The notes under the pieces: model-generated
Seen by the model: only the letters and a program-made list of their open reading frames with translations
What the model was told of the DNA's origin: nothing
Database searches by the model: none
Translations under genes and position numbers: made by a program
Source: a virus
Length of the DNA stretch: 39,121 bases
Virus record (IMG/VR): IMGVR_UViG_3300044800_000163
Location: 1-39,121 of that record
Direction: 5' to 3' (one strand)
Shown here: piece after piece, positions 1-39,121 of the stretch
How positions within the stretch are numbered: the first letter of the stretch is position 1
How the letters are laid out: each line of letters starts with the position of its first letter

Positions 1-117
1 ATTACAGACAATCTCACCTGCCTGTAATTTGTCAAAATTTGTGAACGTTGGTTTCACCCAAGCCGCGAATGAGATACCTTCAGATTGGCGACCACAAAAT
101 CTACATTGGCCTAGCAT
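1..117 (-). CDS. csf1: Csf1 N-terminus, second copy, cut by window edge
   Basis: The minus strand encodes residues 1-39 of the same zinc-finger Csf1 protein found complete at 35107-35904, and runs off the left edge. It contains the first pair of zinc-finger cysteines (C5, C8) and C38. The start codon at 117 is preceded by AGGA at a normal distance. Upstream lies a perfect hairpin (128-151) and the holin-like gene. If the phage is circular, this and the right-hand copy are one and the same gene, seen twice; if not, this is a second csf1 or a fragment of one. Confidence 0.75.
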   Translation of the reverse strand, partial: MLGQCRFCGRQSEGISFAAWVKPTFTNFDKLQAGEIVCN

Positions 118-127
118 ATTTCATCCT
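1..127. repeat. 127-bp exact direct repeat (left copy), 5' end of csf1
   Basis: This block is identical, base for base, to 35788-35914 and in the same orientation. It covers the first 39 codons of csf1 (minus strand) and 10 bases upstream. The two copies part immediately after base 127: this copy continues into a hairpin and the phage lysis genes, the other into a glycosyltransferase gene. A repeat of exactly 127 bp at the very edge of the sequence is what a de Bruijn assembly built with k=127 would leave at an unresolved branch. The simplest inference is that the phage also exists as a circle of 35,787 bp in which csf1 follows the holin region. Confidence 0.9.
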
Positions 128-17170: not shown

Positions 17171-18776
17171 CATCACGGAACAGGCCAAAGGTCTGCTCCA
17201 CCAGCAATTCTGGAAGTTCTTTTTCCCAGGCGTCCAGCAGGCCGGTTAGGCCGTCGAGATCGGTCACTGCGCGCAAGGTCTGCAGGTTGGCGCCAGCATA
17301 GGAGCTGGCCAGTTCTTCGAGCGGCGGGACCTGTGTCCGGTTGAGCAGGCCGGTATAGCTCTCCACGGCCGGCCGCAGCGCCCGCTTGACAAATTCCTGG
17401 TGTTCTGTATAGAAATCGTTTAACCAGGTATCCCAATCTTTCTTTTCTTCGGTCTTCAGTCCCCGGTCTTCGGTCTTTTTTAAGAACTTGCGGCTCGCCT
17501 CGCGCAGGTCGTGCAGCTCCCGCCGGACGATGCGCTCGGCGGCCTCGGCCACCACCGGTGAGAAGTTCTTCTGGACCGAGGCGGGCACCATGTTCAGCGG
17601 GGTTAGGTAGGCCTGCCCCTGGTTTTTCGGCAGCGGGTTCCGGTTCTCCATCGCCAGGATGTCGTCGGCGGAGAGCCAGCCCCATTGGCGCCCAATGGCG
17701 TAGGATTCGTAACGGCTCTTGATGTCGCCGCGCAGCAGGCTGTCTACCAGCGTTTCACAGTAGTACAGGCCTCTCTCTTCGGGGCTGAGCAGGCTGAAGT
17801 TGATCGCCTGCTCGAAACGTACCAGCCAGGGTCTTATCGTGTGGATCACGAACGAGAGCATGAACTGTTCTACACTGGCGTAAGTGGCGGCTTTCTCGTA
17901 CTCCTGGAGCAGCGAGAGCGGATAGTTGTAGAAGCGGGCGATCTCGGCTACCTGGAAGGTGCGGGTCTGCAGGAACTGGGCGTCCTCGGGCGGGATGCCG
18001 ACCTCCACGAGATCCATGCCTTCTTCCAGGATCATGACTTTATGGGAGTTTTCCGAGCCTTGATACTCGTCATTGATCTCCAATTTCAGGCGTTCGAAGG
18101 CCTTATCGCCCAATTGCTTGGGGTGTTTGAGGGCAATCCCGGGCCGGGCGTCGTTCGCAAAAAATTTTCCACCGAACTCTTCGGCAGCCATCGAAAGGGC
18201 CAGGGCATTGCGGGCCATCTGGATGGGCGAGTAGCCCAGTAATCCGTCGAAGCCGAAGGCAGCGACTTGCATGACTTCGCTGGCGGGAAAGGTACGCGGC
18301 GAGCCGTCCGCCTGGCGATAGTTGTAGACTTTCACGCCATTCTTGCGTTCGACGCTCATGCGGTCCGGCCGCAGGGGCCAGAGTTGACTCACGTCGCCGG
18401 CTTTGTTCCTGACGATCTGGCTGAATGAGTTGCCCCAGGCGGCAGCATGTCCAGCGCTCAACTCCCAGCCGATCTGGGCGGTGTGCTCAGGGTTCCAGGC
18501 GTCATGCAGGATCGGGTAGAGCGGGTGTTCGAAAGCCCGCCGTTTCCCGCCTCCCGGCAGGCGGCGATACAGGATCTTTGGTAAGGTGCTGGTACATTCG
18601 GCGATGCCCCGAATGCAGGCGAAGGCGGTGGAGACGGTCAGGGCGGACTCGATCGAGACGTCCTTTTTGGCATAGGTATCCCAGCCGTTGCCCCGCACAA
18701 TGGACCCGGGCGGCGATTCTTTGACGGTCCAGGTCTGCGATCCGTGCTGGCGCTTTTCCACCAGGTTACTCAGCAT
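17133..18776 (-). CDS. Portal protein, HK97 type
   Basis: The 547-residue protein shows the HK97/phage_portal family signature: 'SALTVSTAFACIRGIAECTSTLP' (about residues 43-65), 'HPLYPILHDAWNPEHTA', the 'LWPLRPDRMSV' stretch and 'GFDGLLGYSPIQMARNAL' (about 173-190). Twelve copies make the ring through which DNA enters. Its C-terminal third, with a helical region rich in K and E, continues past the usual portal core; the last residues come from repeat copy 7. The 5' end overlaps the small membrane protein gene upstream by 11 bases. Confidence 0.9.
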   Translation of the reverse strand: MLSNLVEKRQHGSQTWTVKESPPGSIVRGNGWDTYAKKDVSIESALTVSTAFACIRGIAECTSTLPKILYRRLPGGGKRRAFEHPLYPILHDAWNPEHTAQIGWELSAGHAAAWGNSFSQIVRNKAGDVSQLWPLRPDRMSVERKNGVKVYNYRQADGSPRTFPASEVMQVAAFGFDGLLGYSPIQMARNALALSMAAEEFGGKFFANDARPGIALKHPKQLGDKAFERLKLEINDEYQGSENSHKVMILEEGMDLVEVGIPPEDAQFLQTRTFQVAEIARFYNYPLSLLQEYEKAATYASVEQFMLSFVIHTIRPWLVRFEQAINFSLLSPEERGLYYCETLVDSLLRGDIKSRYESYAIGRQWGWLSADDILAMENRNPLPKNQGQAYLTPLNMVPASVQKNFSPVVAEAAERIVRRELHDLREASRKFLKKTEDRGLKTEEKKDWDTWLNDFYTEHQEFVKRALRPAVESYTGLLNRTQVPPLEELASSYAGANLQTLRAVTDLDGLTGLLDAWEKELPELLVEQTFGLFRDAPLPTPPHLQVR

Positions 18777-18966
18777 TAGGCTTTACCTTCGGAGAATTGC
18801 GAGGCTCGACCAGCCACACACTCAGCCCGATCATCACCAACCCGGTGATGGCCAGCGCCCACGGCCAGGATACAGCGAAGCCCAGGCCGATGAAAAACCA
18901 GCCCAGACCGACGAAAAGTAAAATGTCAGGTACTTCGATCTTCGGTTTCTTTTCCGGGTCAGCCAT
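18766..18966 (-). CDS. Small two-segment membrane protein
   Basis: The 66-residue protein has two hydrophobic segments (about residues 14-31 and 34-52) with charged ends. It is the first gene after the late promoter and its structured leader, and overlaps the portal gene by 11 bases. I do not recognise a family. No clear ribosome site beyond weak purines precedes the start at 18966. Confidence 0.55.
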   Translation of the reverse strand: MADPEKKPKIEVPDILLFVGLGWFFIGLGFAVSWPWALAITGLVMIGLSVWLVEPRNSPKVKPNAE

Positions 18967-18989
18967 GCGCCTCCGGGATTAAATTAAAT

Positions 18990-19074
18990 GCCACCACCAG
19001 GGCAGTCTCTTACGAGACCGCAATCTGGCGGTGGCAAGGCCGTCGTTAGCACTATGTGCCCTACAGGTGACGAC
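18990..19074 (-). ncRNA. Candidate structured late-operon leader RNA (two hairpins)
   Basis: On the minus strand, after the promoter at 19115-19143, the leader folds into two stems. The first (19074-19042) pairs GTCGTC with its complement GACGAC-like arm and encloses GCAC-ata-GTGC. The second (19035-18990) pairs GCCACCGCCAG with CTGGTGGTGGC and encloses GTCTC-gtaa-GAGAC. The long arms, a GNRA-like loop and the position right at the transcript start resemble put-type antiterminator RNAs of phage HK022, but no sequence identity is claimed. A riboswitch-like or attenuator role is equally possible. Confidence 0.5.
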
Positions 19075-19114
19075 CAGGCTTTTCTCTGGCGTCCCTGTGG
19101 GGGTTGTCTAAAAC

Positions 19115-19143
19115 ATAATAGAACAAATTCCCTAATTTGTCAA
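19115..19143 (-). promoter_or_regulatory. Late operon promoter (sigma70 type)
   Basis: On the minus strand TTGACA (19143-19138) and TATTAT (19120-19115) are separated by 17 bases, a near-perfect sigma70 promoter. It lies 150 bases ahead of the small membrane protein and portal genes and downstream of the packaging genes. A perfect hairpin with arms CGTTTC / GAAACG sits just upstream at 19147-19162. Confidence 0.75.
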
Positions 19144-19163
19144 GTCCGTTTCTATGGAAACGA

Positions 19164-19217
19164 TTATCCTATTTTGTTCTCTCGAGCTTCAAAAACCGTC
19201 TTGCACTCAGGGCACAT
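19164..19217 (-). CDS. Micro-gene, 17-residue CxxC peptide
   Basis: The peptide MCPECKTVFEARENKIG starts at 19217 after GAAGGAGA at good spacing and ends with TAA. It follows the DUF115-like gene by 17 bases. The CPEC pair suggests half of a zinc knuckle. It might be a genuine micro-protein or the remnant of a longer zinc-ribbon gene. Confidence 0.4.
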   Translation of the reverse strand: MCPECKTVFEARENKIG

Positions 19218-19234
19218 GGTTAGAAATTCTCCTT

Positions 19235-19870
19235 CTATTGAAACGCTCCAAACACATCCACCAATGGCCCGCTGACCGCCTTGATCCGCTCCGAATGCGG
19301 GCATTTCTCGAACGCCTCCCGCCATCCGTCCAGGTGTTCCTTCAGCGGCATCGTATAGGCCAGGTCACGCGGGTCGGCTTCCGCCGGCCGGGGGTTCTGG
19401 TAGCAGTCCATTCCGCATAAGATCACCGGGTTACATCCGAGATAACACGCCAGCCAGGTTGCCAGGTAGCTGGAAAACAGCCCTCTCCACCACTCTGCGC
19501 CGGCCAGATCTACGTCCGTCCACTCCAGTCGCCAGCTGACCCGCAATCCTCCAAAAACATATAACGCATCCAGCATGGCCAACGAGCTGTTGGGATCGTC
19601 CAGAAATACCATGTAATCCGCCTGGACGAGCTGCGCGCCGTGCAGATTGACGCTGATCAGCACCGGCCTGTTTTCCCCCCTCTCCTTATCTCTCTTCCCC
19701 CCCTCTCCAAATGCTGTTCTCGCATTTGGGGAGGGGTAGGGGGTGGGGCGGGGAGGGGCCGGGGGTGGGGTTAGCACCTTGCGCAGATCCGCTTCCAGAC
19801 TGGGTCCGCCCCCCAGCACCGCGCCCGGGTAACCTTTGTGTGCGTCTTGCAGAGTCAGGATGTTGATCAT
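19235..19870 (-). CDS. DUF115/MptE-like protein with in-frame repeat insertion
   Basis: The 211-residue protein has the pattern of the DUF115 (MptE/6-hydroxymethylpterin or motility-accessory-like) fold: GAVLGGGPSLEADLRKV (about residues 16-32), then VLISVNLHGAQLVQADYMVFLDD, and 'YLATWLACYLGCNPVILCGMDCYQ' (about 135-158). Relatives bind nucleotides or transfer sugars. Residues about 33-68 (proline-rich, then charged) are the translation of repeat copy 8, inserted between the first and second strands without breaking the frame. It lies between large terminase and the late promoter; its role is unknown. Confidence 0.6.
   Translation of the reverse strand: MINILTLQDAHKGYPGAVLGGGPSLEADLRKVLTPPPAPPRPTPYPSPNARTAFGEGGKRDKERGENRPVLISVNLHGAQLVQADYMVFLDDPNSSLAMLDALYVFGGLRVSWRLEWTDVDLAGAEWWRGLFSSYLATWLACYLGCNPVILCGMDCYQNPRPAEADPRDLAYTMPLKEHLDGWREAFEKCPHSERIKAVSGPLVDVFGAFQ
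19697..19770. repeat. C/G-rich palindromic element, copy 8, inside a gene
   Basis: The core CTCCAAATGC-tgttctc-GCATTTGGGG with two G-rich tails matches copy 5 closely. It lies within the DUF115-like gene and is translated in frame as a proline-rich loop. Confidence 0.9.
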
Positions 19871-21628
19871 CTATAACTTCCTCAGCCCGCGCTCGTCGTA
19901 CACCGACCCAACCGTCTCGCCCTGGTTGCGCATCGCCCATCCCAGCCCCATCAATAGCGCCACGATCCCGTCGATCTTCTCCTTTGAGCGTTCCTTGTCT
20001 GCCTTGATGTTGCCCGCCGGGTCGGTACGGGCGATCAGGTTGTCGGCCATCCATGTCAGGATCGGGTTGTCGCCGTGGGCCAGCTTTTTTCCGATCACCA
20101 GGCGCTCTAGTTCCTTCATCGGCGGGCTCATGCTCTGGTAGCCCTGCCCGAATGGGAATACGTCCATTGTCAGGCCTTTCTTGATCATCATCTGCCGCAG
20201 GGTTTCGGCGTTCCAGCGGTCGTACGGGATTCCCATCACCTGGAACTGCTCCGCGTCCTGTTCGATCTCCTCCAGGATCCAGTCGTAGTCGATCACGCTC
20301 CCCGGCGTGGCCGTCAGGTAGCCTTCCGCCTGCCAGGTGTTGTATGGCACCGCATCGTCCTTCACGCGCCGGATCAGGTTGTCCTCCGGCACCCAGAACC
20401 GGCAGATCACGAACCAGGGCTCCTCTTCGGTCAAAGGCGGGAATACGTGCACCAGGGCGGAGAGATCCGATATGGAGCTCAGGTCCAGCCCGGAGTAGCA
20501 CGTCCGGCCGGCCAGGTGAGCGGGCAGTTCCAGCGCTTCCACCGGTCCCCGGCACAGGCGCCAGGCGTCCATGTTCATCCATTTGATCTCGCCCTGCACC
20601 CAGATGTTCAGCTCTTTTTGTTTGAAAGCGTTCAGCGCGCTGGTCATGCTCTTGGCCCGCTCGGCCTTGGTGCGCATGTCCCCCCATTTCTTGCTTACGC
20701 CCAGGTTGGGATTGGCCTTAATCCAGACGTTCTCATCCCGCCAGTCGTCGCCCTCGTCCAGGGTGTAAATGATCCCGAACCAGGTGTCGTCCTCCACAAT
20801 CCGGTCCAGTACGCGCCGCGTGTATTCGTGTTTCTCGAAACAGACCCCCATCCGGTTAGTGCCGGCGGTGCTGATTGCCAGGATCATCGGTTGCCGGCGG
20901 CTGCCGGTGGCGGTTTCGAGTACATCCCACACATCCCGCTTCTTATGAGCATGCAGTTCGTCCAATCCGGCCGCGTGGACGTTCAGGCCGTCCATCGTGT
21001 CGCTGTCGGCTCCCAACGGCTCGAACTTCTGCGCCCGGTCCAGGTTGAAGATGCTGTCTTTATACAATTGCACGCCATTCCGTCGCAGGATGGCGCTCTT
21101 GCGCACCATCCGCATTGCTTCCCCGTGGATGATGCGCGCCTGGTCTCTCTTCGTAGCGGCCGAGTAGACCTCGGCTCCGGTTTCCCCACCTGGAACTTCA
21201 TCAGAGAATGCCAGGTAAAGCAGTACCGCCGCCAGCCAGGTGCTTTTCCCGTTCTTCCTCGCAATTTCGATATAGACGGTCCGGAATCGCCGCGTGCCGG
21301 CGGTGTCCTCCTTCTGCCCGTTCCGCTCCACCACCCAGCGCGGGTGCGGCGACCGCTTCCAGCCGAAGATGCACCAGGTGATGAACTGCTGCCACGGTTC
21401 GAGCCTCAGCGGCTGGCCGGCCCACTCTCCCTTCGAGTGGCACAGCAGCCCGATGAAATTTAGCGCGCGCTGGGCGGCTTTGGCATCGAAGACCAACCCG
21501 CGCTCGGCGCCGGTCTTCAGATCGTTCAGGTGGCGCTGGCAGGCCTGGCGCACCCATCGGCAGGCAATGACTCTGCCGTGGACCACGTCACGCGCATATT
21601 GCTCGGCTGGATGCAGTCTGGCTGGCAT
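19871..21628 (-). CDS. terL: Terminase large subunit
   Basis: The 585-residue packaging motor has an N-terminal ATPase with a Walker A-type loop ARKNGKST (residues 123-130) and a Walker B-type 'HAAGLDELHAH' (Asp223, Glu224), and a C-terminal nuclease part in which CYSGLDLSSISD supplies the first metal-binding aspartate. This fits the Terminase_1 family. It pumps DNA into the prohead and cuts it. The start at 21628 follows AAAAGGAA; it overlaps the stop of the small subunit gene. Confidence 0.92.
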   Translation of the reverse strand: MPARLHPAEQYARDVVHGRVIACRWVRQACQRHLNDLKTGAERGLVFDAKAAQRALNFIGLLCHSKGEWAGQPLRLEPWQQFITWCIFGWKRSPHPRWVVERNGQKEDTAGTRRFRTVYIEIARKNGKSTWLAAVLLYLAFSDEVPGGETGAEVYSAATKRDQARIIHGEAMRMVRKSAILRRNGVQLYKDSIFNLDRAQKFEPLGADSDTMDGLNVHAAGLDELHAHKKRDVWDVLETATGSRRQPMILAISTAGTNRMGVCFEKHEYTRRVLDRIVEDDTWFGIIYTLDEGDDWRDENVWIKANPNLGVSKKWGDMRTKAERAKSMTSALNAFKQKELNIWVQGEIKWMNMDAWRLCRGPVEALELPAHLAGRTCYSGLDLSSISDLSALVHVFPPLTEEEPWFVICRFWVPEDNLIRRVKDDAVPYNTWQAEGYLTATPGSVIDYDWILEEIEQDAEQFQVMGIPYDRWNAETLRQMMIKKGLTMDVFPFGQGYQSMSPPMKELERLVIGKKLAHGDNPILTWMADNLIARTDPAGNIKADKERSKEKIDGIVALLMGLGWAMRNQGETVGSVYDERGLRKL

Positions 21629-22128
21629 TACTTCTTTCCTTTTGCTACTTTGACCTGGTTTCCGAACAGTTCCTTTTCCAGCCCCTTCTGGTCCTTCTCG
21701 TCGGGCGGCTCGGCGTGCACCTTCGAGCGGCTGCTGGGCGTCAGCCCGAATTCGGCGGCCAGGGAGTTGAGTTGCTCGTTCATGCGGTTGACGACGGCCA
21801 GGTAGGGGTTCTGGACCAGGTTGCCGTTCGAGGTTCTGATGACTGTCCCCAACTCGGCCACTTTGATCTCTGCCTCGCGCCAGCGTTTGTAGATCGAGCA
21901 ATAGCGCGCCAGGGCGTCCAGGTCGATGTTGGTCAGCACGCCCAGTTTCATCAGCTGCGGCGCCATCTTTTTCCATTGGGTACGCGCCAGCCCTTTCAAA
22001 AAATCCGGACAGGCCGGCACGCGCGTCAATCTCCCCGGTTTTGGCTCCGATTTATTCAATGGACGCTTCCCCGGGTTGCCCTCCATTTCCTTGATGGCTG
22101 TTGGTTTTGGTCTGCGTCCTTGCGTCAT
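21628..22128 (-). CDS. terS: Terminase small subunit, P27 family
   Basis: The 166-residue protein matches the P27 family: 'GRRPKPTAIKEMEGNPGKRPLNKSEPKP' at the start, then 'CPDFLKGLARTQWKKMAPQLMKLGVLTNIDLDALARYC' (about 38-78), and the 'YLAVVNRMNEQLNSLAAEFGLTPSSRSKV' end. It recognises the packaging site and loads the large subunit. HNH, terS and terL in a row are typical of cos-type HK97-like phages. Confidence 0.9.
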   Translation of the reverse strand: MTQGRRPKPTAIKEMEGNPGKRPLNKSEPKPGRLTRVPACPDFLKGLARTQWKKMAPQLMKLGVLTNIDLDALARYCSIYKRWREAEIKVAELGTVIRTSNGNLVQNPYLAVVNRMNEQLNSLAAEFGLTPSSRSKVHAEPPDEKDQKGLEKELFGNQVKVAKGKK

Positions 22129-24507: not shown

Positions 24508-24756
24508 TCATTCGATGCCCGGCAGTTGATCGTTTTTCCATTCTTTCCAGGCGATGTAGGCATGTCCAATGTCGTTCGTACCCATCCAGGCCAGACAGTA
24601 GGTATATTGCCCGTCCTTGGGACCATACTGCGCCAGGAGCAGCTCGAGATCCGGGACCCGCCCAACTTGACGGAACTTGAGCCGGTGCAGGCCGGATCCC
24701 AGGATGACGCTCTCGGTCATGTGCGGCGGCTCGATCCGGGGCTGGAGATTATTCAC
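24508..24756 (-). CDS. Small protein coupled to parB-like gene
   Basis: The 82-residue product is coupled to the ParB-like gene: its GTG start overlaps that gene's TGA (GTGA) and GGGGGA precedes it. It contains several tryptophan and tyrosine residues near the C-terminus (WMGTNDIGHAYIAWKEW) and no known motif. Confidence 0.5.
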   Translation of the reverse strand: MNNLQPRIEPPHMTESVILGSGLHRLKFRQVGRVPDLELLLAQYGPKDGQYTYCLAWMGTNDIGHAYIAWKEWKNDQLPGIE

Positions 24757-26558
24757 GCCGCATCCCCCTCTCCCTCTCCCCCTAAATCCGAGGGATTTGG
24801 GGGGATGTCGCCGCTAGGCGACAAGGGGGTCGTTTCGGGCTCGAAGGCTTTTGCCCGTTCCAGCCAGTCTTCCGGCAGGGTCAGGCCCCAGGCCTTGGCG
24901 ATTCCCTGGAGAAATTCAGCAGTGGCTACCGGACCCTCGTTTTCAGATTCATATTCCAGATCCAGCAGGCCTGTAATGATCTCGATGCGGCAAAGGTGTA
25001 GTTTCTCTTTCCTGGAGAGGATCTTCTCTTTATTGCGTTTCGTAAGATCTTCATCGTCCAATCTCGCCATCGCCATCAGGAAACCCAGGTTGTCGATCAT
25101 ATTCAAGGGTGTGGCAAAAAGTGAATAGACTTCAGCTTCCTCCTCAAATCTTCGGCTGGCTTCCTGTAATTTTCGCCGGAGTTTGTTCTGTTCCTCCCAT
25201 GAGTTGGAGGAACGTCCGGAGGCCTTTTCCTTCTTTTCGTCCTTCTGCGCCTGGACTAGTTCCGGGGCGATTGTGACCATTTCGATCACTTCGGACTTGG
25301 TAAAAGCATTCTCGTATTGCGCAGGCTTGATGTGCAGCCGCAGGTTGGGATCTTTTTTCTCGAAAAGGGCTTTAGAAACATCCTCCCAGGAATGCGCCAG
25401 CGCCACAAACCCGCTGTGCGCCTCTTCCACGCTCAAAGCCTTGATCTTGAGTTTCTTCTCTTCCCTGACCAGCTCGACCAATAACCAGGCGTCCTTTTTG
25501 TGGGAATAGCAGGCCTTCAAGGTGCAGTAGTGATTGTTATCGGCTTTCACGTGGAAAGCGCAGGCGGTGCAGGCCGGCGGATGGATCAACTGGTCGAGCC
25601 GTTCGATCGTTTCGGCGTCGGCGCCCTGGGCGATCAGCGCTTCGGCGCTGACCAGGCCGCTGTGCAGTTTATTGACCCAATCCTTCAACTGAGGGCGGTT
25701 TTCGACGGTCAGTTCCCCGCCCGGGAGCGCTTTCTTTGCCAGGCGGATATCGATATCTCCCAACACGGACAGCGGTTGCATGAATTTGGCGATCTGCGAC
25801 GTGGGCATGTCCAGATCCCACAATCCTGAGCCGGCCGAAGGCTTGCCGCTTCTCCAGTAGGCCCACATTCTGACGGCTTTATTCTTGTATGCCAGGCCAT
25901 TCAGGATGGCCTCGATGACCTTCTCGACCGGCTGGGTGCCCTCGATGATCTGGTGCATTGCCCCCTCGACCAGCTCTGGAGCCACGCGCACCAGGACCAG
26001 CAGTTGCCGCGCCGCCGCGATCGTGATCTCGCCGCTGGAGAGCTTTGCCTGGGTGATCTCCGGCAGCCCCAGCAGCCGCACCGTACCGCGTATGGTGGTT
26101 TCGTCGCAATTGAAGAATTCGCCGGTCTCGGCACTGGTCTTCTTGAAGGTCTCCATGTAGGTGTGCATGGCCCGGGCGCGCTCGATCGGGTTCAGGTCCC
26201 GCCGCTTGATGTTCTCGGCCACCGCCATTTCGAACATCTGCAGATCGTCCAGGTCCCGCACAAAGCAGGGCATCTGATAGAACTCGGTGGGCAGTGGAAG
26301 ACGATCGGGATCCACCTTTTCCTGGGCGGCCAGCCGGTTGAACGCCGCCAGCCGGGTATGGCCGAAGGCCAGTTCGTATCTCGATACCTGGCTGCCCTGG
26401 CTGAGTTGTTTCTTACGCACGGTCGGCGGCTGCAGCAGGCCGTTACGGGCAATGTTTTCGGCCAGCTCGGCCACCACGGCCGGATCTTCCGCCTGGCGCA
26501 CCTGGTAGGGATTGGAGAGTATCTCCTGGATGGGGATCAAAACAGGGGCTTCGTTCAT
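24753..26558 (-). CDS. ParB-like nuclease/partition-domain protein
   Basis: The 601-residue protein starts with a ParB/RepB/Spo0J domain (residues about 6-95) with NPYQVR, ENIARNGLLQP and GHTRLAAFNRL (residues 66-76, the CTP-binding box), then AENIKRRDLNPIERA and a helix-turn-helix region (about 140-190). Beyond it lies a long extension with a cysteine cluster, CTACAFHVKADNNHYC (about 335-350), and a charged tail. The last residues (PSGDIPPNPSDLGGEGEG) derive from a degenerate repeat copy. Phage proteins of this kind act in DNA binding or partition; no parA was seen. Confidence 0.8.
   Translation of the reverse strand: MNEAPVLIPIQEILSNPYQVRQAEDPAVVAELAENIARNGLLQPPTVRKKQLSQGSQVSRYELAFGHTRLAAFNRLAAQEKVDPDRLPLPTEFYQMPCFVRDLDDLQMFEMAVAENIKRRDLNPIERARAMHTYMETFKKTSAETGEFFNCDETTIRGTVRLLGLPEITQAKLSSGEITIAAARQLLVLVRVAPELVEGAMHQIIEGTQPVEKVIEAILNGLAYKNKAVRMWAYWRSGKPSAGSGLWDLDMPTSQIAKFMQPLSVLGDIDIRLAKKALPGGELTVENRPQLKDWVNKLHSGLVSAEALIAQGADAETIERLDQLIHPPACTACAFHVKADNNHYCTLKACYSHKKDAWLLVELVREEKKLKIKALSVEEAHSGFVALAHSWEDVSKALFEKKDPNLRLHIKPAQYENAFTKSEVIEMVTIAPELVQAQKDEKKEKASGRSSNSWEEQNKLRRKLQEASRRFEEEAEVYSLFATPLNMIDNLGFLMAMARLDDEDLTKRNKEKILSRKEKLHLCRIEIITGLLDLEYESENEGPVATAEFLQGIAKAWGLTLPEDWLERAKAFEPETTPLSPSGDIPPNPSDLGGEGEGDAA
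24768..24815. repeat. C/G-rich palindromic element, copy 9 (degenerate)
   Basis: The sequence CCCCCTAAATCC-gag-GGATTTGGGGGG keeps the palindrome core but lost most of the G-rich tail. It lies in the 3' end of the ParB-like gene, in frame. A short stem GTCGCCgctaGGCGAC follows. Confidence 0.7.
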
Positions 26559-30874: not shown

Positions 30875-31015
30875 ATGCTGAACGGCGATCCGGGAGACCG
30901 GGCCAAGGTCCTGCGCGCGCTCGTGGTGGAGGTCAGGGCCGAACGCATCGGCGGCAGCCCGGTCCGCCACCGCAAAGGCACCATCACCGGGACGATCAAA
31001 GAACACATCGCCTAA
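30875..31015 (+). pseudogene. Recombinase-like C-terminal remnant
   Basis: This 46-codon plus-strand frame, GC-rich in an AT-rich surrounding, reads GDPGDRAKVLRALVVEVRAE. That resembles the end of large serine recombinases, where a 'R-x-l-L-R-A-L-v-x-x-V-x-V' stretch is common. It has no ribosome site and no upstream continuation, and its last four codons and stop lie in the csf1-derived 69-bp repeat. It is probably a gene remnant left at a recombination joint. Confidence 0.35.
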
Positions 31016-31069
31016 AAGCAACTCACGCATTTTGGCTTTGTTTCCCTTACTTAAAGGGATCCATTCGCC
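31001..31069. repeat. 69-bp exact copy of csf1 codons 74-96
   Basis: Bases 31001-31069 are identical to 35617-35685 and in the same orientation. They correspond exactly to codons 74-96 of csf1 (GEWIPLSKGNKAKMRELLLG and three more residues). There is no other csf1 sequence on either side here. The two copies bracket 4,616 bp holding the rest of the csf operon. Confidence 0.95.
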
Positions 31070-31643: not shown

Positions 31644-32162
31644 ATGGAAGAAAAACTTGAATACCGATGGCCGAACCTGAAACCAGTCATCCGCCAATAT
31701 GTTGTCCGCGACGACCAGGGACGCTATGGCATTGCCTATCAGGATAACTGCTACCACAAGGGTAATCTCTTTGCCCACCCGATTGACGTGATGTCCATTA
31801 TCTCCCCCGAGGGTATGTGTGGAGCGGAGACACTCCCGACCAACGCCATCCTGATGACAGATACCGCCTTCCCTTTGCGGGAAGATGGCTCCTACAAAGG
31901 CACATGGTACGACTATGGCGGCATTGGGATTATCCCCCCCGGGGACATCCGCACCATCACAATCATTGACGATCTCGGTTATGTCATGCCTGATAAGATG
32001 GCCGATCTCTTTTTGGTCGGGAGCGACAAGATGGGACATTGGGACTCATTTTGGGCGAAAAATCTTGGTAAAAAGGGAGGATCCTCTACTAGTGTGAAAA
32101 AGAAAGCATCCAGCGCGGAGAATGGCAAACTTGGCGGCCGCCCCAGGAAGGAAACCCAATAA
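31644..32162 (+). CDS. Unknown protein with AT-hook-like tail (second of two)
   Basis: The 172-residue protein is rich in aromatic and acidic residues and ends in a basic, flexible tail with NGKLGGRPRKETQ, like an AT-hook or other DNA-touching tail. AAAGGAG precedes the start at 31644. Its stop lies only 8 bases from the convergent stop of the cysH-like gene. Small acidic proteins with regulated promoters near CRISPR-Cas genes can be inhibitors or regulators, but nothing here proves that. Confidence 0.65.
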   Translation: MEEKLEYRWPNLKPVIRQYVVRDDQGRYGIAYQDNCYHKGNLFAHPIDVMSIISPEGMCGAETLPTNAILMTDTAFPLREDGSYKGTWYDYGGIGIIPPGDIRTITIIDDLGYVMPDKMADLFLVGSDKMGHWDSFWAKNLGKKGGSSTSVKKKASSAENGKLGGRPRKETQ

Positions 32163-32169: not shown

Positions 32170-32910
32170 TTACACGTATTCCCGTGCTTTGGGATGTTCC
32201 GCGGCGAAATAGTTAAATAATTCCGGCCAGCCCCGCTTTAAGATGGCCATTTGGCCATATCCAAGCACGCGCTCGACTGCAAACGGCCCGATCCGTTGAT
32301 ATTGTGGTTCCACCCCCATCTCTTCCAGCCGGTCATAGGCCCGGTTGTAGTCCAGGTTATTGCTGACGATATAAGCCCAGACATCCTGCCAGATCCAGTC
32401 ATGGATCGGGTTGCAGTGCCAGGTCTGATCTTTTTGCGCCAGGAATAGCGGACCGTTGACCCGTAGGTGCATCCTACGGATATTATTTTCCTCCTGTCGC
32501 AGTCCCAGATAAACCAGATCGTAACCTTTCTCTTTGGCATAGGTCTGCAATCCGTTGTTTTTTGGCGCATCCACCCAGATTGTCCCTTCCGGGATGTCAT
32601 CCGCCCCATTTGCCCAGGAGGTGAACCATTCGGCATGTTTGATCGTTGCCGCGATCCGGGCACATCTCATCCGCCCGATATAATCCAGCGTCTCTGGGAA
32701 ATTCCATTCATCGTCTGAAAAAACGCAGGGAACATCCGGAGCCTGGCTATGCACCAGATCCATTACCACGGTCGAGTCTTTGCCGCCTGACAGAGCGATG
32801 TAACCTGATTGGCTTGTCGTAATTGCCCTGGCCACGATCCGGCGCGCATTGGCCAACCGTCCCTGGTATATCCTGGTCCTGGCACGCAGCGCCGCGATTT
32901 CATTGCGCAT
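32170..32910 (-). CDS. cysH-like: CysH-like PP-loop ATPase of type IV-B locus
   Basis: The 246-residue protein has the PP-loop SGGKDS (residues 41-46) of the phosphoadenosine-phosphosulphate reductase family, followed by 'DDEWNFPETLDYIGRM' and WHCNPIHDW. The C-terminal cysteine motif of true CysH enzymes (ECGLH type) is absent, so it is unlikely to reduce PAPS. CysH-like genes are the standard companion of type IV-B csf operons. Its start overlaps the HTH gene by 11 bases, so it is co-translated. Its role in type IV-B is not known. Confidence 0.85.
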   Translation of the reverse strand: MRNEIAALRARTRIYQGRLANARRIVARAITTSQSGYIALSGGKDSTVVMDLVHSQAPDVPCVFSDDEWNFPETLDYIGRMRCARIAATIKHAEWFTSWANGADDIPEGTIWVDAPKNNGLQTYAKEKGYDLVYLGLRQEENNIRRMHLRVNGPLFLAQKDQTWHCNPIHDWIWQDVWAYIVSNNLDYNRAYDRLEEMGVEPQYQRIGPFAVERVLGYGQMAILKRGWPELFNYFAAEHPKAREYV

Positions 32911-33232
32911 GGTTTCTCCAAGCTCGGCCGGGCATTATTTCGCCTTTTTTTATTCTTTCATTCAATTTTGCAGCGTTCCGGCGTTTTGTTTCCCGCTCCA
33001 GATCAGTGTAGATGTGTATCTGTGCCTCTGGCCGCTCCCAGTGATATATTGTAGTGATCGATACGCCGATAGTTTGTGCGGTTTGTGCCCTGGTCATTTG
33101 CTCACCAAGCCGGAGATAACTTACAACATCCGCCGGGTGTCTGCCTGGATATTTACTTTCACATAGCCGGACCATCAGGCCATATCGGAGATCATGCCTG
33201 GATTTGTAGCGTGGATCTATTTTACTGGTCAT
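32900..33232 (-). CDS. Small HTH protein inside the csf operon
   Basis: The 110-residue protein carries a helix-turn-helix at about residues 46-70 (MTRAQTAQTIGVSITTIYHW, a Tn3/MerR-like 'G-V-S-x-x-T-I-x-x-W' recognition helix) and a basic helical tail rich in lysine and arginine. The start at 33232 overlaps the csf3 stop (ATGA), and the stop overlaps the cysH-like start by 11 bases, so it is an integral part of the operon. It may be an autorepressor or a DNA-binding part of the complex. I know of no standard type IV-B subunit like it. Confidence 0.75.
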   Translation of the reverse strand: MTSKIDPRYKSRHDLRYGLMVRLCESKYPGRHPADVVSYLRLGEQMTRAQTAQTIGVSITTIYHWERPEAQIHIYTDLERETKRRNAAKLNERIKKGEIMPGRAWRNHAQ

Positions 33233-33924
33233 GGCAGCACCAGTATGATCTGGTTGCGCCTGTCCCAATAGGATGGGCGTACACCGTATAGGGCAATATT
33301 ACCCACACAATCATCCGGCCTTTCACCGGCAGGAATGCCGCGCATGAGTTTGCCATCCTTCCATATCGACCAATCCTCGGTACTTTTCGTGACTTCCCAT
33401 CTCGCCACCCTGCCCCAGCCCTGGGCGGCCTTTTTGCCAATATGGATGAGCGTGGACAGCATCCGCATTATCTCCGCCCGGTCTCCCACGCAATACCAAC
33501 GCACCCATAGAGCTGACCTGTAAAATACGAGCTGGTGATAAGCCTTATATGGCCCAGCCAGGTTGTTGACCGTTCCGCGTCGCTCGCCGAAATTCACATA
33601 ATCGGACAGATCATTGTCGTAGCGCTTATTCCAGTAGTCTTTTCCTTCCACATTCGGTCCCCACTCCGCCCAGGAGCAGCGGTAATACCACTCCCTCGCA
33701 TGGACGGTTTTGATCGGCAACTTCCCGCCGATCATCGCCTGGCCCTTGGGTTGGGCCAACCTGGTTGCACCCGACAAGGACACATCCTGAGCGCCCAGGG
33801 CCTCGCGTGTCTGCTGATAGAGCAGCAATCCATCCAGCGGCAGCCATTGGTCGGAGATCACTGCCGTCCGCAGATTGGCGGTGATCTGAAGTGGCTCAAA
33901 ATGTAGATCCTCACGCGAGACCAT
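33229..33924 (-). CDS. csf3: Csf3 (Cas5-like) of type IV-B CRISPR-Cas
   Basis: The 231-residue protein opens 'LHFEPLQITANLRTAVISDQWLPLDGLLLY', the Csf3 form of a Cas5/RAMP beta-strand followed by the 'P-L-D-G-L-L' element, and has the glycine-rich 'GKKAAQGWGRVARWEV' loop (about residues 166-182). Cas5-type subunits cap the 5' end of the guide RNA. The start overlaps the csf2 stop by 14 bases. Its place after csf2 matches type IV operons. Confidence 0.85.
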   Translation of the reverse strand: MVSREDLHFEPLQITANLRTAVISDQWLPLDGLLLYQQTREALGAQDVSLSGATRLAQPKGQAMIGGKLPIKTVHAREWYYRCSWAEWGPNVEGKDYWNKRYDNDLSDYVNFGERRGTVNNLAGPYKAYHQLVFYRSALWVRWYCVGDRAEIMRMLSTLIHIGKKAAQGWGRVARWEVTKSTEDWSIWKDGKLMRGIPAGERPDDCVGNIALYGVRPSYWDRRNQIILVLP

Positions 33925-34888
33925 TGATCAATTCGCGGATATCACTTCCGCGCTCCTGCAAATGCTTTTGATAGAGATTGCCCAGCTTAAAGGCCACCTC
34001 GTTCCCGGCTGGGGCAAGGCGTGGATCGATCTCGATCCATTTGTCAAACTTGATCAATACCTTGCCGTGCCCAACGCCGCTCTTGCCTCCGATATAGGGA
34101 GACTTGGAAAACTCCATCAACGTGACGACAAACGCCTCCCGTTCCAGGTCGGTAACATCATCCAGCGCCACCTCCCAAAACAGGCGCGTCCCGGCCGCCA
34201 ATGTTTCGACAAAATAGCGCATTTGCTGTTTCTGCCCGGTCTCGCCCTCCACATCCTCACCTTTGCGGGCCTTTTCACGCTTCGCACTGGCATCCATTTC
34301 CAGCAATCCTCGCACATCCGGAATAATTAATTGGCGTAGGTTTTCGTTTTTTTCGTCGTCGCGGCGTGTATAGGCTTCCTCCTGGCATAACTCCCAGACG
34401 CTTTCCACTCCCTGCTCGGCAAAGCGTTGTGGGAGTAGGTGCGCTGTCTCAGAGCAGATCGGGATGACCTTCCCGATTTTGGCCTTGCCCGGCATGATCT
34501 GATTGCCCATCGCCCCGCCGAAGAGAGCCACCAACGGGATCAGACTGCGCCACTTGCGCGCCTCATCCACATCCAGGCCGCGGTTACCCAGATCCTTGGT
34601 CAACGCTCCCCCGGAAAACAGAAAGTAGAACGCCGGTAGAGATAGACCTTTGACCTCGCCCATTTGCTCATTGATGCCATATCCGAGCATCTTGAGCATG
34701 TGCAGCATTCCCCGGTCTCGTAATATCCCGCGCATGGCATTGCCGGATATGATCGGCACTTCCTCCACCGACCCATCTGGCTGGATCACCTTCTCGCGGC
34801 GTAGTTTGGAGTTGATGCCGTGAGAATCTCCGATGTGGCTAATGGATGTGAGTGCGGTCATTATGCCTTCAAAAATGAGTGTTTGCAT
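33911..34888 (-). CDS. csf2: Csf2 (Cas7-like backbone) of type IV-B CRISPR-Cas
   Basis: The 325-residue protein has the Csf2/Cas7 RAMP features: an opening strand (MQTLIFEGIMTALTSISHIG), 'PIISGNAMRGILRDRG' (residues 45-60, the 'G-N-S-L-R-G' helix) and 'SPYIGGKSGVGHGKVLI' (about residues 268-284, glycine-rich loop). Several copies would coat the guide RNA. AAGGAG precedes the start at 34888, right after the cas11 stop. Confidence 0.9.
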   Translation of the reverse strand: MQTLIFEGIMTALTSISHIGDSHGINSKLRREKVIQPDGSVEEVPIISGNAMRGILRDRGMLHMLKMLGYGINEQMGEVKGLSLPAFYFLFSGGALTKDLGNRGLDVDEARKWRSLIPLVALFGGAMGNQIMPGKAKIGKVIPICSETAHLLPQRFAEQGVESVWELCQEEAYTRRDDEKNENLRQLIIPDVRGLLEMDASAKREKARKGEDVEGETGQKQQMRYFVETLAAGTRLFWEVALDDVTDLEREAFVVTLMEFSKSPYIGGKSGVGHGKVLIKFDKWIEIDPRLAPAGNEVAFKLGNLYQKHLQERGSDIRELINGLA

Positions 34889-34889
34889 T

Positions 34890-35291
34890 TCAATTCTCCT
34901 TGGTTTTCAGATTTCCGAATAATTCCGGCGAATTATCAGAATGTAAATTTTCCCATTCCTCGCGCTTTTCCTGGTTCACCACGCGCACCATAAGCACGAT
35001 TAATGTTGTTTCTTCGCGCAAGAGCTTCAGTAATGCGCGATCATTGCCGGAATTGGCAATGCGTTCGACCGTTGCACGGTCATCTGCGTCTTTTCCGGCA
35101 TCAGCATTAAGTTTCAGACAAAGTTGGTTGATGAACTTCGCCAGGTTGTTTGTGTATGCCGCACTGCGCACCTGGTTCTCGAACTGTGTCCAGATCGTCA
35201 TCCGGTAGCGACTCTTGTAATCCGCTGGCGTCCCGCGCCAGATCGCCATCAGCAGTGTCGCTGCCTGGTTCCGAATCTCTTGATTTTCCAT
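34890..35291 (-). CDS. cas11: Cas11-like small subunit of type IV-B
   Basis: The 133-residue protein is all-helical in pattern with many charged residues, the build of a CRISPR small subunit. It lies between csf1 and csf2, where cas11 is found in type IV-B. The ATG at 35291 has AAAGGAG at good spacing; a GTG two codons earlier is possible. The first 185 bases overlap the end of the csf1 frame (see csf1). Assignment is by place, size and fold pattern, not by motif. Confidence 0.7.
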   Translation of the reverse strand: MENQEIRNQAATLLMAIWRGTPADYKSRYRMTIWTQFENQVRSAAYTNNLAKFINQLCLKLNADAGKDADDRATVERIANSGNDRALLKLLREETTLIVLMVRVVNQEKREEWENLHSDNSPELFGNLKTKEN

Positions 35292-35904
35292 CTTCACTCC
35301 TTTGCGCCAAAAACAGCGCTAATGAAAATACAGGCCTTCCACGCAATGACTTGATTTGGTCTTCCAATTCAAACCATCGTTCTATTCCAAATTTTAGGAT
35401 GCGCCAACCTGCATAGTTACCCGTTTCAATCTCTTCTTTTGAAAATTCGGCGTATAAACTTTCAATCGGCGTGAATAAAGCGCGTAATTCATTAGGAATT
35501 AAATAGATCCTTTGTTCCTCGAATTGTACCCAGCCCGCTTTATTACCTGGCGCATTACGCGTCGCTCTGAAAACAATGTGCTTCTGCCCACTATCGGCAA
35601 TCGCTGCCAATTCCGGGAACACATCGCCTAAAAGCAACTCACGCATTTTGGCTTTGTTTCCCTTACTTAAAGGGATCCATTCGCCGCCAATAATAAAATG
35701 TGAATAGTTCCTCATCCGCTGCGGCTTTTCTTTCCCCATCCGCACTGCCAATTCCGGCGACGCCTCGTTGAAGAAGAACAGGCAATCATTACAGACAATC
35801 TCACCTGCCTGTAATTTGTCAAAATTTGTGAACGTTGGTTTCACCCAAGCCGCGAATGAGATACCTTCAGATTGGCGACCACAAAATCTACATTGGCCTA
35901 GCAT
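35107..35904 (-). CDS. csf1: Csf1 (Cas8-like, zinc finger) of type IV-B CRISPR-Cas
   Basis: The 265-residue frame starts with a four-cysteine zinc finger: C5-x2-C8 and C38-x2-C41 (CRFCGR, CNDCLFF), the mark of the Csf1 large subunit. It is the first gene of the operon. Only about the first 202 residues look genuine; the last 63, rich in Asp, Ser and Gly, are read from cas11 DNA in another frame. One extra base in the five-T run near 35309-35313 would bring the TGA at 35296-35294 into frame, just ahead of cas11. So either this copy has a frameshift or an unusually long overlap. The first 127 bases of this region repeat at the left edge, and codons 74-96 repeat at 31001. Confidence 0.85.
   Translation of the reverse strand: MLGQCRFCGRQSEGISFAAWVKPTFTNFDKLQAGEIVCNDCLFFFNEASPELAVRMGKEKPQRMRNYSHFIIGGEWIPLSKGNKAKMRELLLGDVFPELAAIADSGQKHIVFRATRNAPGNKAGWVQFEEQRIYLIPNELRALFTPIESLYAEFSKEEIETGNYAGWRILKFGIERWFELEDQIKSLRGRPVFSLALFLAQRSEDGKSRDSEPGSDTADGDLARDASGLQESLPDDDLDTVREPGAQCGIHKQPGEVHQPTLSET
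35617..35685. repeat. 69-bp repeat, copy within csf1
   Basis: These bases are codons 74-96 of csf1 and match 31001-31069 exactly. The repeats would let homologous recombination loop out 4,616 bp including cysH-like, HTH, csf3, csf2, cas11 and the csf1 C-terminal part. Confidence 0.95.
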
Positions 35905-35914
35905 ATTTCATCCT
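35788..35914. repeat. 127-bp direct repeat (right copy), 5' end of csf1
   Basis: Identical to bases 1-127. Here the sequence just beyond it (35915 onward) is the 3' end of a glycosyltransferase gene instead of the phage lysis region. The point of divergence, at 35914/35915, is therefore a junction between phage and non-phage sequence and a candidate attachment or recombination site. Confidence 0.9.
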
Positions 35915-35916
35915 CA

Positions 35917-37410
35917 TCAAGGTACCTCCTCGATCAAATAAACGCAGGATTGCACCAACTCATCATCTTCTGAGCAACCCAATGGTACGGTTTCAAGAAG
36001 CCCATGCCCGAGTAGATAGTCATTCTCGCAGGGTGAGGTGAGTGGCGTTACGGCGGTGACCACCCAGATGCGACCGGTTGTGTTTTCAGGGAGATCGCCA
36101 GTCTGTTCCCCGATAGCAGCACGAGTAAGATTGGATAGGCCGCCATAAACCCGTCCGCATGGGGTAACCCGGATGGCATTGTCAATATGCTGCCAATAAA
36201 CCGATCCGGAGACAAACACCCCATCATCAGCATAATAGAGCAGGTCGCCCTCCTGCCATTGAGAATCAATTACGGAATACATATCGCCATTTTTGAGCAG
36301 TGTCTCATCGGCCCAATGGGATCGGATTTCGGTACCGATCAGATTAACCAGCAATGCCGGGACCAGGAAAATCGCCATCAATAACAATGGTCTTCTCCCC
36401 AGGGTCCCTACCGGCTCGGCGATCAGAAGGCAGATGAATGCTCCCGAGGGTATCAGCGCCCGGTAGAGCATGATGGGTTGCCAGATAATACTGATCATGG
36501 CGGCCAGAGTTATAGGAACAAATGCCAGGATAACGGTTGGCAAGTTCAAGATCCGGTGGCGAAGGGACCAGATCACCACCCAGGTCACCACGCCATAAAA
36601 AACGGCGATATTGACCATTTCAGCTTTCAGCATCCCACTCAAAAAAACAGTGTATAACAGATCTCTCAGTATGCTCCAAAATGAGAAATAAAGGATCCAA
36701 TAATTCCCATTGATCTCGTTCATTTGTTTGAATAGGACCAACAACCAGGGGATGAATGCCAACCCGGCAGCAGCCACGGCGATGGTTACCGGCCTCCAGG
36801 TGCGCCGGTCATAGACCATGGCAGCCAGCCAGATCGCCGCGGCATATAAAAGTCCATAGTTTTGTAGATAGAGCATGGTGGTGGTGGCCAGCGCCAGCCA
36901 GACCCACTGGCGGCGAAGGATGCATAACCAGGCAATCAGCACCAGCAAGGTCAGCAAGGCATACATGCGCCCTTCCTGGGCATAATAGATCTGCTCGGGA
37001 AGGAAGCAGAACAGGCCAAACGCTACCAACCGGATCCTGTCATTGGTAGTCATGATCTTCAGGATAAGCCACCAGACCCAAATGGTGGCGATGCTGGCCA
37101 ACAAAGACGGGATCCGCACAATGGCCCAGGCGGGAATGCCTGGAATGTGAGCCAATGGCCAGCAGAGAAGATACCAGAGAGGAGGATGTACATCTCCGGC
37201 TGTGGCGGCAATGAGACGGTTGATGGGCAGGCGGGCCAGGAGGATGCTGAAATTTTCATCATACCAGGTGGGCATTGCCCAGATCGGGATGATGCGCAGG
37301 AGACCACCAATGACAGCGATTATGATTGGCCATTCAATATGACAAAGAATGTCCTTTTTGTCGCCCCGCTCAGCTGCGGTAAGAAAAGAGAATTTAGATT
37401 TTGAGATCAT
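35917..37410 (-). CDS. GT-C (family 39-like) membrane glycosyltransferase
   Basis: The 497-residue protein has a dozen or so membrane segments and the GT39-like 'WYDENFSILLARLP' start (about residues 48-60, with the D-E pair expected after the first segment) followed by 'GDVHPPLWYLLCWPL'. Such enzymes move sugars from lipid carriers onto proteins or glycans outside the membrane. The C-terminal 120 residues form a soluble outside domain. The start at 37410 overlaps the TGA of the small gene upstream (ATGA). The stop lies 12 bases ahead of csf1. It looks like host DNA. Confidence 0.75.
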   Translation of the reverse strand: MISKSKFSFLTAAERGDKKDILCHIEWPIIIAVIGGLLRIIPIWAMPTWYDENFSILLARLPINRLIAATAGDVHPPLWYLLCWPLAHIPGIPAWAIVRIPSLLASIATIWVWWLILKIMTTNDRIRLVAFGLFCFLPEQIYYAQEGRMYALLTLLVLIAWLCILRRQWVWLALATTTMLYLQNYGLLYAAAIWLAAMVYDRRTWRPVTIAVAAAGLAFIPWLLVLFKQMNEINGNYWILYFSFWSILRDLLYTVFLSGMLKAEMVNIAVFYGVVTWVVIWSLRHRILNLPTVILAFVPITLAAMISIIWQPIMLYRALIPSGAFICLLIAEPVGTLGRRPLLLMAIFLVPALLVNLIGTEIRSHWADETLLKNGDMYSVIDSQWQEGDLLYYADDGVFVSGSVYWQHIDNAIRVTPCGRVYGGLSNLTRAAIGEQTGDLPENTTGRIWVVTAVTPLTSPCENDYLLGHGLLETVPLGCSEDDELVQSCVYLIEEVP

Positions 37411-37619
37411 AGCCAATCATAAGTTGGAAGCAATTCGTACCCGAGTTTCTCTCGGTGAGTGTTTATCTCTCTGGTGAGACGAATATTTTCACAGATAAGC
37501 AATGCAATTGTCGCAGCAGATCCCTCTCTACCTCGCACATTCGCAAGGGAAATTGCCAACTTTTTAGCTTTGATCAAATCATCAGTAGTCAGTTCTGGAC
37601 GTGTGAATATATCAGTCAT
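37407..37619 (-). CDS. Small gene between glycosyltransferases, unknown
   Basis: The 70-residue protein has 'LTTDDLIKAKKLAISLANVR' and 'AATIALLICENIRLTREINTHREKLGYEL', a helical build with no membrane segment. It is coupled to the glycosyltransferase gene by an ATGA overlap. A GGAGATT precedes the start at 37619. The function is unknown; size and pairing with 37633-37824 would fit a toxin-antitoxin or other two-gene cassette, without further support. Confidence 0.55.
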   Translation of the reverse strand: MTDIFTRPELTTDDLIKAKKLAISLANVRGREGSAATIALLICENIRLTREINTHREKLGYELLPTYDWL

Positions 37620-37632
37620 CAGAAATCTCCTT

Positions 37633-37824
37633 TTAGGGTGGTCCGGATTTCTTCAAATAATTTGCGGCTAATAGCGCCAGGCTTCCCATTATTACTTTAT
37701 TGCCACCCACTTCGATTGCAATCTCCAGGGAAGATTTACCTTCGTTCACAAGTTGGCTAACCATGTCAACCTTTTTAGAGAAGTATTTCAATAGGTATTT
37801 ATAGGCTTTCTCTTCGATGATCAT
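37633..37824 (-). CDS. Small gene coupled to upstream glycosyltransferase, unknown
   Basis: The 63-residue protein has an amphipathic start (MIIEEKAYKYLLKYFSKKVD) and a semi-hydrophobic end (NKVIMGSLALLAANYLKKSG). Its ATG overlaps the TGA of the larger gene at 37821, so it belongs to the same operon. No family is recognised. Confidence 0.55.
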   Translation of the reverse strand: MIIEEKAYKYLLKYFSKKVDMVSQLVNEGKSSLEIAIEVGGNKVIMGSLALLAANYLKKSGPP

Positions 37825-39121
37825 GGTGCCTCCACCAGGTAGACATTGATCTGAGCGGCTTGCAAATAGTTGATGGTATAAACCGGGTCCTGGTGATGGA
37901 CCAGGTCATTCAGTTCAACCTGCTCATCTGGAGAGATCAATCCATCCTTTGGAATGATCACCCACGAACGGCCGGTAGCTCCGGTCGAAAAGTTTAGATC
38001 CGAGTGGTGCATGGATGGCACCTCGAGAAAAGGTTCATGGACAATATCAGTCCAGGTATGGGGAAGATCATCCAGGTAATAATCGATTGGTGTTCCTACC
38101 GTGGCTGTGGTGTAAACCAACACATCCCCAGTTCGCCATTGAGAGCGGATCTCATTCGCCACCTGGTCCAGGCGACCGCCTCGAGCGGAGGAATGCCACA
38201 GCACCAACCCGGCTATCAGCATTCCAGTCCAGGCAATGGCTGGGACAATGTTGATCCAGCGCCAATTCCCGAGTTCCCAACCCAACCAGAGGGCCATGGG
38301 AAACAAACCAGGCATCAAGGTCCGGTATAGGACCATGTTATTCTTGGTGATCAGGCTGAAGATGATCAATCCGAGATAGGGGATCAGACAGGCCAAAAGA
38401 GGGATGATCCTACCCCGTCTATCATCCACCCTGGAAAATAATAATAAAAGGATTGTGGCCAGAGCGATGAATGCGGCCAGTAAGAATGTCATGCCATATA
38501 GTTCTGGCCAGATGGCTGTAATGCTGGAATTGATTAACCAACTGATGGTCAAATGGGGTTGCCAGGGTTGCTGAATAATCCAGGTATTGAGCATATCAAT
38601 AATGGCCGGGATCCAGACCAGAACCGATCCCAGGCCAACCAGGAAAATGCGGCGGACCTTCCATGGATATAAATATAAGGCTATGAGCAGCGCCGCAACA
38701 GCATAGACCGGGCCAATATTATGAGCATAAATAGTCAGACCACAGATGGCCAGCAATCCAAGCCAGTTGTGATCCAGAACAAACCAGAGCGCCGCCAGGA
38801 ATAGGCAGGATAGCAGGCCATAGGAACGGGCGTCCTGGGCCATCCAGAGCAGGCCGGGCAGGAAGGCGGCCAGGCTGGAGGCGCAGATCTGCTGGCTGAG
38901 GGTGAAATTCAGGCGGCGCATGAGTTTCCAGACCAGCCACAAACTGACCAGTCCGGCAACCATGGAAGGCAACCGTAATAACCAGACCGAATGACTGATG
39001 GCCATCAGGGGGCGCAGGAGGATATCAAGGATGAGATTTCCAGAACCTCCATTTACATTCTGGAAAAGAGTCAGGAAGGGGATCTGGGTGCGATTGATCA
39101 TAAAGACTTCATCATTCCAGA
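37821..39121 (-). CDS. GT-C (family 39-like) glycosyltransferase, cut by window end
   Basis: The visible 433 residues carry many membrane segments and the family start motif WNDEVF just inside the edge, which corresponds to WYDENF in the neighbouring gene, so only some 40-50 N-terminal residues should be missing. The methionine at 39101 is internal. The C-terminal 110 residues form an outside domain like that of its neighbour. Two related enzymes in one operon suggest a duplicated glycan or protein glycosylation function of the host. Confidence 0.75.
   Translation of the reverse strand, partial: WNDEVFMINRTQIPFLTLFQNVNGGSGNLILDILLRPLMAISHSVWLLRLPSMVAGLVSLWLVWKLMRRLNFTLSQQICASSLAAFLPGLLWMAQDARSYGLLSCLFLAALWFVLDHNWLGLLAICGLTIYAHNIGPVYAVAALLIALYLYPWKVRRIFLVGLGSVLVWIPAIIDMLNTWIIQQPWQPHLTISWLINSSITAIWPELYGMTFLLAAFIALATILLLLFSRVDDRRGRIIPLLACLIPYLGLIIFSLITKNNMVLYRTLMPGLFPMALWLGWELGNWRWINIVPAIAWTGMLIAGLVLWHSSARGGRLDQVANEIRSQWRTGDVLVYTTATVGTPIDYYLDDLPHTWTDIVHEPFLEVPSMHHSDLNFSTGATGRSWVIIPKDGLISPDEQVELNDLVHHQDPVYTINYLQAAQINVYLVEAP

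Follow-up and report, generated by a model that had tools for sequence, protein, structure and literature searches.

The 39,121-nt stretch of viral DNA IMGVR_UViG_3300044800_000163 (hereafter the window, meaning the whole stretch) carries a type IV-B CRISPR-Cas operon of a variant kind: it is phage-borne and array-less, and the 3′ end of csf1, which encodes the large subunit, is overprinted on cas11, the gene for the small subunit. Comparison with relatives on other contigs shows that, for the family, both frames of the csf1/cas11 overlap are under selection, and that cysH, the gene for a CysH-like protein at the end of the operon, has been swapped between closely related operons. These two observations, together with a clamp-like motif in relatives and the presence of cas6 or arrays in some of them, go beyond a preliminary description of the window, which had been made from its sequence. 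The role of type IV-B systems and of their CysH-like partner is an open question (PMC8175902).

In the AlphaFold2 (AF2) model of the window Csf1, residues 1-203 form a folded core with a predicted local distance difference test score (pLDDT) of mostly 80-97, and residues 204-265 are predicted to be disordered (pLDDT <50). Among the first 20 operons, csf1 overran the start of cas11 in 18, by approximately 170-250 nt and in another frame. In the wider set, 33 of 51 distinct operons have a csf1 that continues into cas11 in this manner (approximately 70-260 nt). We analysed the overlap by resampling, in which the Cas11 protein was fixed and synonymous codons were redrawn. Only 3 stops were observed in the csf1 frame of the overlap, against 51 ± 6 expected, and conservation in this frame (BLOSUM) was 1.61, against 0.30 ± 0.07 expected. 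The cas11 region downstream of the overlap, used as a control, showed no excess conservation. When two later-found relatives were added, the tails were open in 19/19 cases (0.7 expected). A second tail family of unrelated sequence (L207-L211 and L215), with a cas11 overlap of approximately 165 nt, was open in 6/6 (1.3 expected). In G011, csf1 stops early and several further stops follow in the tail frame, as expected without selection. The tail is absent from several more distant relatives, and the wider csf2 tree implies at least 8 changes of tail state. Because this tree is poorly resolved, gain and loss of the tail are not separable with certainty. In the literature that we searched, there was no report of a CRISPR subunit extended through overprinting of another cas gene. 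Csf1 seems a clear example of such a subunit, with a selected extension gained in this way.

Most relatives have a tail that ends in Q-L-x-L-F. The consensus for binding to the sliding clamp is QL[S/D]LF or QxxLF (PMC12309361), and in the transposases of mobile elements the clamp motif lies close to the C-terminus (PMC4549789). Four of the five motif positions are conserved beyond the cas11 constraint (p≤0.001, resampling), and the motif was present in 15 of 19 tails, against 0.46 expected. It should be mentioned that the motif was spotted in the first set of operons and met again in loci found afterwards. Of the 33 long-overlap operons now in the wider set, 28 possess it, versus 23 of 874 other open reading frames (ORFs). 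The idea that the motif is a by-product of cas11 coding was rejected by the resampling. Tails of the second family end in QLALDLF, QLQLELF or QIQLELF, the hexapeptide form, which was found in 6/6 (0.14 expected). The tail-less operons L122 and L124 possess a similar motif in Cas11 instead (QSDLL and QQDLF, respectively). The end of the tail is thus sliding-clamp-binding-like in most relatives, not in the window; from the motif, its placement and its recurrence, we infer that the complex of these relatives would sit on the replication clamp. Any short and hydrophobic motif of a disordered tail might bind some other protein, and the window retains its tail without the F of the motif; therefore, we considered docking to another partner (Cas11, CysH or a host factor) in place of the clamp. 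We regard this as unlikely, since both the pentapeptide (QLxLF) and the hexapeptide (QLxLxL) occur in unrelated tails and the motif stays while CysH is swapped.

The pairwise distances of Csf1, Csf2, Csf3 and Cas11 correlate with one another, and those of cysH hardly do so. Two pairs are fully supported in the tree of the core proteins, namely the window with G001 and G007 with G008, and for cysH both groupings are rejected (approximately unbiased (AU) test, p = 2.6e-7 and 8e-19, respectively). The position of cysH within the operon also varies. Among the 53 operons with csf3, cysH is kept in 48; each of the five that lack it has another gene there. G009 and L200 encode radical-SAM proteins that are 47% identical to each other, and L122 and L209 encode a DSGAF protein (40% identical). 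In L124, a methyltransferase gene (PF00398) lies exactly between csf2 and csf3, which is the cysH site of its sister G015. SpoU-type methyltransferases are encoded beside cysH in L173 and L187. The idea that the DSGAF protein is TGT/DpdA-like gained no support from Pfam or PADLOC. Enzyme families of the kinds seen in and beside this slot commonly modify RNA. This choice of partners suggests that the slot enzyme may modify nucleic acid.

The gene order of the operon (csf1, cas11, csf2, csf3, a helix-turn-helix (HTH) gene and cysH) and the coordinates in the preliminary description were right (Table 1), and Csf1, Csf2, Csf3, Cas11 and CysH all matched their profiles (PADLOC 9e-25 to 8e-80; PF01507 2e-20). 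The Csf1 zinc ligands C5, C8, C38 and C41 are nearly invariant among 20 relatives, and the best Foldseek match of the Csf1 model was type IV-A Csf1 (7xg1_A, E 3.3e-4, prob 1.00). Against solved structures, the window Csf2 matched IV-B Csf2 (7jhy) at 6e-33, then "Cas7c" at 1e-23 and IV-A Csf2 at approximately 1e-7. This ranking places IV-B Csf2 nearest and favours IV-B. As a separate observation, the structures 11fs, 11hc and 11hd, whose chains are named Cas7c, match the window Csf2 at 6e-16, nearer than IV-A Csf2. The AF2 model of the window CysH resembles 3′-phosphoadenosine-5′-phosphosulfate (PAPS) reductases and FAD synthase. No cysteine is invariant in the CysH alignment, as already reported for Cas-associated CysH (PMC8175902). 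The HTH gene product scored weakly in every library (best Pfam 0.0027; NCBIfam 1e-4); G001 and L110 encode homologues at the same operon position, and the window protein is likely a DNA-binding regulator. The convergent neighbour orf172 gave no match in profile scans (Pfam, PADLOC and NCBIfam) and has no known domain; it recurs, in the same convergent orientation, beside the operons of G010, G016 and L110.

Table 1. Features of the window and the matches on which their assignment is based
Feature	Position	Strand	Basis
csf1 (Cas8-like large subunit, zinc finger), 265 aa	35107..35904	-	PADLOC Csf1_0_IV 9e-25
csf1 3′ end over cas11 5′ part, other frame, 191 nt	35107..35297	-	conservation of frame and motif among relatives
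cas11 (small subunit), GTG start at 35297	34890..35297	-	PADLOC Cas11_1_IV 6e-30
csf2 (Cas7, filament subunit)	33911..34888	-	PADLOC Csf2_0_IV 8e-80; PDB 7jhy_e Csf2 1e-28
csf3 (Cas5)	33229..33924	-	PADLOC Csf3_0_IV 7e-55
HTH protein	32900..33268	-	weak HTH matches; tblastn homologues 55% and 37%
CysH-like PP-loop protein (SGGKDST), exchangeable module	32170..32910	-	Pfam PF01507 2e-20
orf172, convergent to operon	31644..32162	+	tblastn 41-48%
Exact copy of 35788-35914; circle-closing junction	1..127	.	self-comparison of window
Siphophage genome	128..32169	.	PHROGs and Pfam
GH25 lysin	930-2009		PHROGs/Pfam
Major capsid protein	14684-15919		PHROGs/Pfam
Portal	17133-18776		PHROGs/Pfam
Large terminase (TerL)	19871-21976		PHROGs/Pfam
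ParB-like	24753-26558		PHROGs/Pfam
Branch upstream of csf1, two membrane-glycosyltransferase-like genes, off the circle	35915..39121	-	

The window was described earlier as having no array and no cas1, cas2, cas6 or dinG, and our scans agree. Neither a short-period repeat array nor an Rfam match nor a Cas6 was found in the window, and profile scans of the operon and the scanned neighbours (Pfam, PADLOC and NCBIfam) revealed no adaptation genes (cas1/2), Cas6, dinG or Cas10. Therefore, any guide would have to come from elsewhere. Relatives that encode Cas6 or Cas6e lend some support to the earlier idea that the system might use foreign guides: Cas6 is encoded in L131, L185, L208 and L210, and a Cas6e-like protein in L205, L213 and L214. 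In L131 (6975-7622) and L213 (2320-2880), the Cas6 and Cas6e-like genes are within the phage IV-B operons themselves. On the 56-kb contig of L131, Cas6 is present and an array was not found. The viral contig L206, which carries a IV-B operon, has an array of four 30-nt repeats with a 61-nt period (12481-12693) near a Cas6-like ORF, and L189 has a mini-array of two identical 28-nt repeats with a 35-nt spacer (127-217) directly upstream of csf1. These relatives, and the precedent of type IV-A (PMC11656645), would suit a guided silencer, in which CRISPR RNAs (crRNAs) of the host or, in array-bearing relatives, of the phage itself direct the complex to block transcription or replication of competitors and CysH has a minor part. 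However, most relatives and the window have neither Cas6 nor an array, and a search for protospacers of three spacers from L206 and L189 matched only the source contigs themselves. We consider such a silencer rather improbable.

As a whole, the observations are best explained, tentatively and with somewhat less than even confidence, by a phage IV-B ribonucleoprotein with an outside guide RNA, an exchangeable enzyme and, in many relatives, an attachment to the clamp. The effector operon would be accessory cargo of a circular tailed-phage genome. By analogy with the solved IV-B complex, Csf2 and Cas11 with Csf1 and Csf3 would form an RNA-binding filament, and its guide might be a host crRNA or another small RNA. 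Csf1 has an additional tail of approximately 60 residues, predicted to be disordered and coded out of frame in cas11, by which the complexes of motif-bearing relatives may sit on the replication clamp. The exchangeable enzyme (CysH-like in the window) would act there on nucleic acid or nucleotides, as its exchange with modification-enzyme families hints. Its likely use would be to compete at the replication fork with the host or with other mobile elements. The more specific proposal, that phage IV-B systems are fork-tethered machines for delivery of a nucleic-acid-modifying enzyme, in which a Csf1 tail born from the overprinting of cas11 recruits the complex to the clamp and the enzyme slot (CysH-like, radical-SAM, DSGAF protein or methyltransferase) is exchanged like a cartridge, is possible but doubtful.

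Several points weigh against this explanation. The resampling breaks the shared ancestry of silent sites and thus overstates significance, although the downstream control shows no excess. The long overlap is absent from 18 of 51 operons, the majority of which are also without the motif. The window motif itself is degenerate (QPTLS, in the C-terminus HQPTLSET); thus, the window Csf1 may bind the clamp weakly or no longer at all. Profile matches are the basis for the functions given to the slot proteins, and the DSGAF protein has no such match. Finally, the purified Mycobacterium IV-B complex bound and assembled on heterogeneous RNA (PMC7937560). This also fits an RNA sponge, that is, a Csf filament that binds small RNAs unspecifically and disarms guide-RNA-based host defence, with CysH as an auxiliary; the absence of an array and Cas6 from the window is also in line with it. 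A sponge, however, leaves unexplained the selected Csf1 tail and its clamp-like motif, the strong retention of CysH, the other enzymes that take its place, and the occurrence of cas6 or cas6e in relatives. Overall, a sponge seems to us an improbable account.

On condition that the contig is circular, the operon was described as part of a phage genome of approximately 36 kb. The 127-bp repeat at the start of the window and at 35788-35914 can be read as one k=127 graph node visited twice, where k=127 is deduced from the repeat length; positions 1-35787 then form a self-loop and 35915-39121 a branch. The lysin, major capsid, portal and large terminase genes share the strand of the csf operon on this loop. 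Thus, that the operon is part of a 35,787-bp circular phage genome is supported but not proven, and 35915-39121 falls outside the circle. Searches for viral relatives of the branch found none; its homologues in Chloroflexota genomes are weak (best 34%). Through the branch, csf1 also lies behind glycosyltransferase-like genes, which is a second upstream context, and csf2 was not found in the TerL relatives of the window phage, which are mostly fragments. Both facts would fit an operon that belongs to a neighbouring replicon or the host and was joined to the phage by the assembler. We consider this very unlikely, given that the circle closes through csf1 itself and that phage contigs carry relatives of the operon as a rule, several of them (G005, G007, G013 and G016) with exact end repeats. 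Two further repeats were observed. An exact 69-bp copy of the internal csf1 segment 35617-35685 is present at 31001-31069, in an intergenic region between divergent sigma70-like promoters (30842 - and 31083 +); its candidacy as a conserved guide was rejected, since relatives have no comparable exact copy. A G-rich palindromic repeat (CCCCTCTCCAAATG...CATTTGGGGAGGGG) occurs approximately nine times, scattered between structural genes at 5795-19780.

As the depth of the scan rose, the number of viral contigs with relatives of the operon increased from 19 to 27 and then to 58, and the csf2 products of these 58 are 29-82% identical. The TerL profile phrog_2 was matched in 15 of 27 relatives tested, and the TerL of G001 and G018 resembles that of the window; therefore, carriage by tailed phages is general. 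Together with the profiles and the nearest structure, this bears out the earlier reading of a phage-borne array-less type IV-B operon. Only one genome contig with the operon was found, in a Chloroflexi metagenome-assembled genome, the sole strong match among 400 Chloroflexota genomes. The bias of the family to viruses is strong, and virus-exclusivity is not proven; the search method favours close relatives. A Chloroflexota host, as proposed earlier, is weakly supported: the one genome contig speaks for it, and the palindromic repeats, taken as a host clue, occur in 0/400 Chloroflexota genomes. In L021 (6411-6920) and L022 (217-726), which represent one phage lineage from two samples, the operon is decayed: csf2 is truncated at approximately residue 160 and csf3 and cysH are gone.

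Plasmid type IV-B systems (Mycobacterium sp. JS623 and Rhodococcus; 7JHY, PMC7937560) possess the same csf1, cas11, csf2 and csf3, usually with a CysH-like gene, and like the window have no array or Cas6, but they are on actinobacterial plasmids. In the plasmid comparators pMYC1, pGD21-2 and pCPRO01, csf1 stops before cas11 and a clamp-like C-terminus was not seen. The IV-B system of Fuxivirus, from Bathyarchaeia viruses, is likewise virus-borne with a CysH-like gene; unlike the window, it belongs to an archaeal virus and has a mini-array, and the passages that we consulted do not mention an overprinted tail or clamp motif (PMC10848311). Skermania phage SPI1 (KR011061, L068 in our set) has the csf1-cas11-csf2-csf3-cysH order of the window in Orf40-44 (6840-10473), but its csf2 product is 38% identical, its csf1/cas11 overlap is only 14 nt and the motif is absent. 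This phage genome is public and its host is named; the products of the IV-B operon are annotated in it as hypothetical proteins. Type IV-A systems share Csf1, Csf2, Csf3 and mobile-element competition with the window; in contrast, they have an array, Cas6 and DinG, and their Csf2 is more distant. Clamp-binding transposases (IS1634 and others, PMC4549789) are, like the tailed Csf1, mobile-element proteins with a C-terminal QLxLF-type motif. However, they are not CRISPR subunits, and their motif is not coded inside another gene.

The operon family allows direct tests of binding of the Csf1 tail to the clamp and of nucleic-acid modification by the slot enzyme. Moreover, its array- and cas6-bearing members are natural material for finding the RNA of type IV-B systems.

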